DNA of 64,000 bases from positions 12,266,711 through 12,330,710 of the forward strand of contig OZ036007.1 in the NCBI GenBank assembly GCA_964035015.1. The letters are read 5' to 3'. The notes below the pieces were generated by a model. The model was not told where the DNA came from, ran no database searches, and saw only the letters and a program-made list of their open reading frames with translations. The DNA is from Corallium rubrum. Lineage: Eukaryota; Cnidaria; Anthozoa; Scleralcyonacea; Coralliidae. Both the position numbers and the translations under genes were made by a program. Positions within the stretch are counted from its first letter, which is position 1; each line of letters starts with the position of its first letter. Positions 30,301-39,300 of the stretch are shown here, one piece after another.

Positions 30301-33300
30301 ACGATTTAGAGAGAATCCATAGTTTGTTAGATTCCCTAAAACCTGATGAGCCACTAAGTTTTACTGAATTTCTTGAAAAGTTAGAATTATCTGAAAATCA
30401 GTATTTGAAGGTTATTAGACTTTCTCTTAAACATGATACTCTACTGCTAAAACGATCCCCTTCTGAGATTAGAATAAATTGTTACAATCCAAACTTGTTA
30501 AAAGCTTGGCAGGCAAATATGGACATTCAGTATATATTAGATCCCTATGCTTGTGCTGTCTATATTCTTTCGTACATCACAAAAGGTCAACGAGGAATGA
30601 GCAAGTTACTGAGGAAAGCTTGTGATGAGGCAAAAGAAGGCAATAAAAATATTGTGAACAGAATCGGACATATTGGCAATAAATTTCTCAATGCTGTTGA
30701 GATAAGTGCACAGGAAGCTGTATATTTAGTTTTGCAAATGCCTTTAAGAAGATCATCTCGTGAATTTCAATTTCTTAATACTTCTCACCCAGATGAAAGA
30801 ACATTTTTACTGAAAGATATGGAAAAGATTAAAGATCTCCCAGACAATTCTGCTGACATAGAATCAGATAACCTGATTAAAAGGTATCAAAGAAGACCTA
30901 AACAGTTAGAAAATGTGTGTTTGGCAGACTTTGCTGCATGGTGTAATTGCAAGCGAGACGATAATTCAAAGAAAACACAAAAATGTAAGTCAAATTCATC
31001 ATCTGATGACTATCTTTTGGAAAATGATTTTAATGAGAATGTTGATGATGATCTCTCTGACAATAATGAAACAATATGTGAAGATGATCAATATGAATTA
31101 AAAGGAGGAATGATACTTGTTAAGAGACGAAGACCAAAAATCATTCGATCAGTAAGATTTAATAAGAACAAAGACCCTGAAAATCATTATAGGGAACAAA
31201 TAATGCTTTATACTTCATGGAGAAATGAAAACAAAGATCTCTTGCAAAATGTAGAAATACCAAGAAAGATTTGAACTTCTTAAAGATCTTATAGAAAAAA
31301 ACAGAAAACAATATGAGAATCACACTGAAGTTCTTGATCAGGCCATTGAGAATGTTGAAAATGAAGAGCTTGCTAATGTCGCTCCTAATGCACAACACAG
31401 AGATGAACAAGATGAGCAAATAGGCTCAAAAGCTAGTGAATTATTTGGATGTTTTGATCCTGGTAAAGATAAGCAACATATTGAATATGACTTGATGGAT
31501 GATATTGGTATTTATCCTAGAACAAATGATAATGAAGAACTTCTTATGAAACAATTGAAGGATGAAGATTTTAGAAAACTTGTCCAATTACTAAATATTG
31601 AGAAAAAAGAGTTCTTTTACCATGTACTCCATTCTATTAAAACTAGTCATCAACCATTAAGACTTTTTTTAAGTGGTGGTGCTGGTGTTGGCAAAAGTAC
31701 AGTAACAAATGCTCTGTATGAAGCTCTTATTAGATATTTAAACACTCAGCCTGGGAGCAATCCAGACGATATCAGTGTTATGAAAGTAGCACCTACAGGA
31801 AAAGCTGCATTTAATATAAGAGGAAACACACTTCATTCTGCTTTTAAAATTCCTGCTAACAGAAGAATTAATTACAGTACTGCACGCTTGATAGACAGAT
31901 TAAATACTATAAGATCTCAACTAGGTAAACTTCAACAAGTCATATTCATTGATGAGGTTTCAATGGTTGGTAGTGGAATGTTTAATTTTCTTAACTTGAG
32001 ATTACAACAAATAATGGGTACAAAAGAACCATTTGGTGGACTTAGCATTATAACTGTTGGCGACTTGTTTCAATTAAAACCAGTCTTTGATCACTGGATA
32101 TTTGAGAACTCAAAAGAAGGATATAATTCATTAGCAACAAACATTTGGCAGCAATATATTTTGAGATGTTTGAGTTATCACAGATTATGAGACAAAAAGA
32201 TAAATAATTCGCGAAAATTTTAAATCGCATTAGGGAAGGAAACCACACTCAATGTGACAGTGAAATTATGAAAGAGAGAATTTTGAAATTAAGCCCTGCA
32301 CATCGTGATTATCCTATGACTGTCACTCACTTGTTTAGTACTAACATGGCTGTAGACCAACATAATCAAGAAATTATTAATAAATCTCTAAATGAAAAAG
32401 CTAAGGTAAAAGCAATAGATATCATACTTGGAGATTTATCCGATGAATTAAAAGAAAGAATGAAGAAACAAATTCCAAATGATCCCACAAAAACCATGGG
32501 TTTGTTTACAGTCTGTGCTGTACTTCAAGGGGCAAAATATGATCTTACAACAAATGTATCTGTTGTTGATGGAATGACTAATGGAGCAGAGTGTATAATT
32601 AAAAAAATTGATTATAGAGTTCCAGGCTCATTAAGACCAAGTATTATTTGGGTTTCATTCCAAGAAAATAATATTGGAAACGAATATCGTAGACAATACT
32701 CCCACCTTTATAATAACACTGTTGAGAAAAATTGGGTTCCAATCTTGGAAATCACACGACAGTTTAGAAAACATCAAATACAAGTTCTTCGTAGACAATT
32801 TCCTTTAAGACCAGCTGCACCTCAAACTATTCATCGTTGTCAAGGTGATACTATCAATGAAGCAGTTGTTGATCTGCCATCTAGTAAACGAGAACACTTG
32901 CATTATGTTGCTCTAAGTAGACTGAGAAGCATATCTGGATTACATATCCTTAATTAGAATGAAAATAAAATAGCGGTTAGTAAGAAAGTACAAGAGGAAA
33001 TGTCAACATTAAGAACAAGTGCATCACTAAATAGTCACATTCCTTTTCTCTACAAATTAGATACCAATGAGATAAGCACTTTTAAAATATTATTCCACAA
33101 TGTAAGATCCTTACACCTGCATATTGCTGATGTTGCAAGTGATTACAATGTACAAGCAGCTAGTGTAAATATTTTTGTAGAAACCGCTCTGTGCAGCAAT
33201 GACAACAATGAATTATATAATCTTCCTGGTTCTCAGCTTTTCAGAAACGATTTTCTGCCACAAAGTACTACAAGAACACCATATGGAACTGCTGCTTATT

Positions 33301-36300: not shown

Positions 36301-39300
36301 GACAGTGCTACTACAGTTTGTTTGCCACAACCATGCACAAACAGTATGAAAAAGAGTCTTATATTCGACGGAGCCTCCATATGGAACTCCCTACCAGCAA
36401 ACATAAGAGAGAGTAAATAAATCTCTTCCATGTTTTCAACGAAAAATCGCTACTTATGTTTCCCACTAATTATACTAATTTACATACTCATGTAAATATT
36501 TAAATTACTCTTATACTTACTACTTAACTCTTGATTTGTAAATAATATAATTTTGTTCATGTTCTTATACACGCCCATCATGGAAACCAGCTTTTGCTGA
36601 TGATGTAAGCGTGGTTAAATAAAATTATTCTATCTATCTATGTATTCATTTACTTAAAATATGATAAATTAACAAAAAAATGTACATAGCCAGAAGAGAG
36701 CAATTAAATACCATAGAGTGAACAGTACATGTATACTAAACAGTATTTAAAAATTCCTAAAATTTGTTTGTCAATCTTTTTCTCCAAATACAAACAAGTC
36801 ACCTCAACCACTTCCCCAGCCAAGTGGCAGGGGTAAAGAAACAACTACTGCATAGGGGACTGGAGGCTGAACTATAGCTGCCTCCTCTTTCCACTTGCAG
36901 GAACAAGGTGTGTTATAGGTAAGTCTTCTTTTAGTTATTTACCCCCTTTAACGTTTACCATTCCCATTCACTTAGTGTCGCATAATCCGATTAAAAATAA
37001 TTTACTGATTAACTGACTAATTTTATCAATTTACATTCCAGCTAAAAAGTTGAAAAATGGTTCACGATTGGTAATCAACCTACTGTAATTAAAAAGAGTG
37101 AAAATCAAGTGTACATCCTAAAGCAAGTTTTATTCAGTTGGACGTCTACTAAAGTCATGTTACTGTACTTGTCAAATGGCGATGACTCTGCCTACGGATG
37201 AATGTCTCTCATGTTACCATGCGACAAACTAATACGCCTCAAAGCAGTTATAAAAGACCCTTTATTTACAAGTAATATTTGGCATTTCACTTGATTAAAC
37301 TGGATGTTCTATGGATGTTCGTCGCAACTAAAGTCATGTCAAAACCAGTATACTGTACTTGTCAAATGGTGATGGCTCTGCCTATGGATGAATGTCTCTC
37401 ATATTACAATAAATGCTCTGTGCAAACAGTCTGCATATAGATGCCCATTGCAGATCATAAACCTTCAAAGCATAAAAAACAGTGTACCATTCATATACTG
37501 TACAGCAATGACAAAGATGACCAATCAACCTGAAAGATTGTGGATTGTGCCCATATAAACTTTAAGATTAAATCCTACGATTCATTCCATTTAAAAACTA
37601 CCGACTATATACAGATGAAGGATTAGTCAACACTAATCATGTAAAATGGCTAAAAAATTGAACTATGACACATTTTATTCCTTACTGACTACTCAGGAAA
37701 GCAAAATAACATTCCACATGTTCCAACAGAACGAGGAAAATTTTAGCTCTACTAATTAATGCTGGATTAACTTTTTATCAATAATGTAAAATAGAACTAA
37801 TACAGCAGTTAAATTGAAACATGTAACTATCAGAAAGATTTTTTCATGTTGTTTCCTCAAGACTTTTCATTGAATTGTACAATGTATTACATGTACATGT
37901 ATCGTCAAATTTAAAGCAAAATAAATCATTTGAAATGTAAAAAGCTCAAGTGTTTTTTACTTTTTTTATGTTGAAATACAGTACTGTTAATTGCTCTACG
38001 AAACTTTGCACTATCCCTGGGTTCTAGTATATTCTTCATTTGGTGAAGTTTGTTTGATCTGTACGTATTGAGTAGATGACCTCATAAGGCATCTCATTTG
38101 CATGTTACAAAAACCTGAATATCTTTGGAACATGATGAGATATTGATTTAATAGGAATGCTAATACTTCATCATATGGAAAGCACCTTTTGTACTTATCC
38201 TAATCTTATAATCATTGTTTTTAAGTTACTCTATTTTCCATTTAGGATTGTCCTAATGGTTATGCTGATAAAGAAGCATTTAAGAGAATATATGCCCAGT
38301 TTTTTCCTCATGGAGGTAAAAATTGTTTGTTTGTTTATTGATTTACATATTTATTTATTTAATATATATTTTCCTTAACGCTTTCTATGGAGTCAATTGT
38401 AATTAACTAGGCATAAAAATTGTGGATACTTCCATGTTTAAATTTTTTATTATTTAATATTTAGATATTTTTATTAAAATTATTTATCCTGTCAGCCCAG
38501 GACATCTTCAGAGCTCTGAAGAGCTATTATTATTGTTATTACACTGTATTATTATTATTATTATTTATTATTATGATTGTTATTATTACTATTACTATTA
38601 CTATTATTAATGTTATTGTATAATATATAATTATATAAACATTTTATTGTATTGTATGTTTTCCATCCTATTTTATTTTTATACTTTGCAGGTATATTTC
38701 TCAACAACTTTTATTCTTTTTTCCTTTCAGAATCAGGCGAGTATGCTGGTCTTGTATTCAATGCATTTGATTTGTACAGGAGAGGAAAGATATCATACGA
38801 GGTATTCTTACTACAATATTTATTAATATTACATTCACCCAAGAGTTGAGGAGGGGAAATAATGATGACTGCAAAGCTAGTTGGTGTAGCTGTGTCCTGT
38901 AGTTGAAAGTATGTATGCATATATATGTTAGTTGAAATTGTAGCTTGGTGTAATTATGTGGGTAAAATTTTGGTCTCAAGCTAATATACTCAGAAAAATG
39001 TCTGAGTATCCCTGGTGGGATATATATCCTGTCAGGGATACTCAGACAGTTTTCTGAGTATATTAGCTTGAGACCAAAATTTATATTTATTTATATATAT
39101 ATATATATATATATGTATATATATATATATATATATATATATGTGATATTTAAAAACCGAGTCAGAGTGCTTTATCATTGTATATAGACACGAGCCGAAG
39201 GCGAGCGTCAATATACAATGATAAAGCACGATGACGAGGTTTTTAAATAACTTCTAAACCATCATCATAAAGTACCTAAGGTTATAACAAAGCAAGTCAA

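Follow-up and report, generated by a model that had tools for sequence, protein, structure and literature searches.

How does a single open reading frame come to encode the endonuclease (EN) of a Helentron, then a second EN, and then the start of a reverse transcriptase (RT)? Such a frame lies in the window, the whole 64,000-nt stretch of DNA that was analyzed and whose positions serve as coordinates throughout. It is open from stop to stop between 32958 and 34997 (679 aa) and spans 33000-34997, where the sequence-only reading had described one frame joining two ENs and the beginning of an RT; both the frame and the Pfam matches bear this out. The first EN matched Exo_endo_phos_2 (E 1.8e-6, over its cut-off), the second Exo_endo_phos (E 3.1e-5; 24.3 bits, slightly below the cut-off of 24.5), and the RT, which is carried on to 36420 in a different frame, matched RVT_1 (E 1.8e-35). 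Three explanations had been offered for this arrangement, an evolutionary intermediate, an RT captured by a Helentron, and a chance in-frame insertion of a 5′-truncated element, and a unique junction together with insert-free copies elsewhere favor the last and speak against the other two. The locus is almost certainly an ordinary nested insertion, found once, in which a 5′-truncated non-LTR retrotransposon landed by chance in sense orientation and in frame within one Helentron copy. Its parts are as follows.

26187-38028, + strand: Helentron copy with OTU, Rep, PIF1 helicase, EN, and 3′ part, with broken frames and the insert 33735-36639 inside (homology to locus L061; Pfam)
32958-33734, + strand: Helentron EN, cut 1-2 codons ahead of its usual stop (DNA match ends; distance from SDHKPIF to the stop)
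33735-36639, + strand: 5′-truncated non-LTR retrotransposon with EN end, linker, RT (RVT_1), 3′ untranslated part, and (TCTA)n tail (identity to loci L002 and L003; common 3′ end)
34982-34985, + strand: private 4-base frame-shifting insertion, missing in L002, L003, and L008
36640-38028, + strand: Helentron 3′ part after the insert (98.3% identity to insert-free L024)

Position 26187 marks the start of the L061 homology rather than a fixed Helentron 5′ end, and both borders of the insert are ambiguous by a few bases, its start being 33735 or 33736.

In PMC4067079, Helentrons are described as encoding Rep/helicase proteins with a C-terminal endonuclease nearest that of CR1 elements; the EN is of the AP type, and some Helentrons also carry OTU. 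The host copy resembles them in the order OTU, Helitron_like_N (Rep), PIF1 helicase, and EN, all assigned by Pfam on the same strand, and differs from them in carrying an insert and in its broken frames: the upstream part is split into several separate frames, and a stop codon precedes the EN. Among its relatives, the Rep and helicase with a C-terminal AP-type EN are found in one frame; there the EN closes a long frame that also encodes the helicase (2536 aa on contig C222), and L013, covering part of that frame, has helicase and EN continuous. The stop preceding the window EN is replaced by a sense codon in 19 of 32 other copies, the search string for its place not being found in the remaining 13. 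Several other Helentron copies end at the equivalents of 38028-38033, with some loci cut or diverging earlier, and CTAG, with a T following it, closes the 3′ ends of L021, L024, L033, and the window. At E 0.001, nothing in the structure database matched the Helentron EN. Tandem repeats of 57 bases (19 aa) occupy 27691-28284, within the Helentron coding sequence and between its OTU and Rep parts; they also align to an array of repeats in L061.

The window holds a filled site for which empty sites exist elsewhere in the same genome. When that genome was searched with the DNA of 33000-33860, the best 40 of 191 candidates comprised the window and 39 others; the matches of these 39 ended at query base 735 in 37 cases, at 730 in one, and at 733 in one, and none of them extended into the insert. 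Of 48 loci read (L010-L038 and L040-L058), which by their contig ranges represent 32 distinct places, all were homologous to the Helentron sequence beyond 36640 and none to the insert. EN DNA thus continues straight into Helentron 3′ DNA in all 32 other copies examined, and in 30 of them a stop lies at most four codons after SDHKPIF or one-residue variants of it. The two exceptions are L035, where a small length change shifts the frame, and L033, where a small deletion leads to a later stop. The L033 deletion, a natural Helentron variant, falls between two GCAT repeats and removes the usual stop, so that the EN frame terminates 14 codons past the shared residues.

Pattern searches of the whole genome gave the same picture. 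The uninterrupted site occurs 93 times with at most three mismatches (reversed control, 0), part of these occurrences belonging to a family of short EN remnants with TGTAGCATGATTC, and the junction pattern occurs exactly once, in the window. The only junction match with three mismatches lies in a place that has no tblastn hit to the fused protein and no homology to the Helentron or the insert; its single blastn hit, of 48 bases, is to window positions 24876-24922, outside both elements. With the 665-aa fused protein as query (best 67 of 4944 candidates, 69 matches), the window alone was listed as spanning the junction region fully, all other listed matches beginning at residue 236 or later. 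The SDH-TRLDS junction, whose uniqueness had been proposed as a test, therefore occurs once, and the 32 other copies are without the insert. It does lie directly after the last catalytic residue of the first EN, as had been remarked, because the insertion struck the final codons of the Helentron protein; the border itself is corrected to 33735/33736. The short EN remnants form a group of their own, with 24 places matching EN residues 82-190 at 87-88% identity and containing an internal TAA (for example, G000:C1:18167005-18167331), and many of these places carry the 3′ variant TGTAGCATGATTC; they are probably an amplified nonautonomous Helentron derivative.

The insert belongs to a family with both full and truncated members. 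Its positions 33736-36490 are 98.5% identical to L002 and L003, both longer copies; at the 3′ end, its identity is 97-98% to L059 and L060, which continue L002 and L003. L002 contains a 1012-aa open frame with EN and then RT in one protein, for which the structure database gave human LINE-1 ORF2 as a match (E 2.4e-15); the L003 frame is interrupted by a stop into frames of 426 and 544 aa. Both extend upstream into the remainder of their own EN, with FNETRLD where the window has SVKTRLD, and the window copy is therefore truncated inside the EN: the N terminus of the second EN is missing, as the sequence-only reading had recognized, through 5′ truncation and not through decay. Two further details noted there are real and private to the window copy. 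GN replaces GD in the second EN (34047), a position at which none of L002, L003, L008, and L004 agrees with the window, and the RT shifts frame through a 4-base insertion (34982-34985) that L002, L003, and L008 do not have, the L004 alignment being unclear around these bases.

The (TCTA)n 3′ end is common to the window insert, L059, L060, and L063-L066. A search with the 3′ end (best 40 of 510 candidates, window included) listed 39 other copies, only 4 of which are accompanied by an EN-region match of at least 92% among the matches listed for the fused protein (best 67 of 4944), so most of the other listed copies are probably 5′-truncated. In three of four loci read, the copy is cut off at positions equivalent to 35090, 35640, and 35680; in the fourth it extends past the locus end. 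The family thus resembles EN-RT (LINE-type) non-LTR elements in having EN followed by RT in one protein (L002), varying 5′ truncation with a common 3′ end, and a short-repeat 3′ tail; the window copy is unlike a complete element in being without the 5′ part.

After the tail the 3′ part of the Helentron resumes, and the closest copies over both flanks are L024, L017, and L015 (97.8, 97.7, and 97.6% identity), which places the insert inside one Helentron. Depending on whether the empty-site variant is GTGGCATGATTC or GTGGTGTGATTC, the latter being that of these three closest copies, about 1-5 target bases seem to be missing. The sequence-only reading had predicted, for a chance insertion, target duplications around 33740-36643; none was found, a search by eye at the window insert revealing no clear target-site duplication. 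Such duplications are variable or absent in some EN-RT non-LTR groups. None was obvious in L063, L065, and L066 either, truncated relatives with visible 5′ ends, and its absence in the window therefore says little against insertion. The resemblance to known nested transposons is close, one element splitting another with empty sites in other copies; the difference is a frame that by chance is open across one border. Of 2565 truncation points in the insert, 745 (29%) would preserve an open stretch of 100 codons or more in the EN frame if the element inserted in sense orientation.

We therefore favor a sequence of events in which an EN-RT non-LTR retrotransposon would have deposited a 5′-truncated sense copy at the very end of the Helentron EN, its truncation point and phase by chance keeping the frame open for about 420 further codons. 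Target-primed reverse transcription, by which non-LTR elements usually insert, presumably produced the copy, and the resulting fused frame is likely to be functionless.

Sequence divergence is compatible with an insertion soon after the arrival of the Helentron. Compared with up to 29 Helentron copies, substitutions private to the window number 10 in 777 sites left of the insert and 5 in 1327 right of it. The insert has 38 differences from both L002 and L003 over 2901 comparable sites, comprising 8 inserted bases and 30 substitutions, of which L008 assigns 18 to the window and 9 to L002/L003, the remaining substitutions falling in L008 gaps (two) or where L008 has no base (one). The rates are similar, 15/2104 for the Helentron and 18/2901 for the insert, although the methods differ and the comparison is a rough guide. 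We also considered selection on the fused frame and rejected it: of 24 private substitutions within it (10 Helentron, 14 insert), 18 (75%) change the protein, as would about 80% of the single changes that are possible; this small count shows no constraint. This set omits the substitution at 34992, which follows the frame-shifting bases, differences where L008 agrees with the window, and insertions and deletions.

A Helentron that had captured an RT, and that is or once was mobile in the form of an EN-EN-RT chimera, would account for the one open frame across the junction, and Helentrons are said in PMC4067079 to carry captured genes. A mobile chimera should leave more than one copy of its junction, and the genome contains one; the window is the only full-length match to the fused protein among the best 67 of 4944 candidates, its RT frame is disrupted by four bases, and its Rep/helicase frames are broken. 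We consider such an element extremely unlikely. It is likewise exceedingly improbable that the fused EN-EN-RT frame encodes a protein useful to the element or its host and so represents, in living form, the step proposed for how Helentrons arose, in which a non-LTR element lands by retrotransposition, in frame, at the C-terminal end of Rep/helicase coding sequence. A working fusion, if true, would bear on how rolling-circle elements acquire domains. An assembly misjoin of two repeats deserves thought because both elements are repeats present in tens of copies, but the flanks are the two halves of one Helentron in the correct order, lacking only a few bases, and the copies nearest to the right flank are those nearest overall (L024, L017, and L015); we regard a misjoin as very unlikely.

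The remaining alternative is that the locus preserves an intermediate stage by which Helentrons gained their EN from a non-LTR element. The two ENs do belong to one superfamily (27% identity, E 7e-14), and a CR1-like origin of the Helentron EN is suggested in the literature (PMC4067079). However, all 32 other Helentron copies examined already have their own EN, and the insert EN is only 27% identical to it, compared with 98.5% identity of the insert to its own family; the insertion is therefore recent, and the Helentron EN did not come recently from the insert family. The chance that the locus is such an intermediate is vanishingly small. PMC4067079 proposes two routes of EN capture, non-LTR retrotransposition into a Helitron or a DNA-based event. 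The nested insertion in the window is an insertion of the first kind in that very place, but its host Helentron already had an EN, and it illustrates the capture route proposed there rather than providing evidence for it. A sense, in-frame non-LTR insertion at the end of Helentron coding sequence can evidently occur.

The window is rich in other repeats. A long satellite with units of about 196/393 bases, which contain self-complementary stretches, forms several blocks from 47182 up to the window end at 64000, and many long tetra- and pentanucleotide microsatellites are present (4548-5136, 11797-12604, 18080-18489, 40177-40561, 44951-45380, and 46591-46848).
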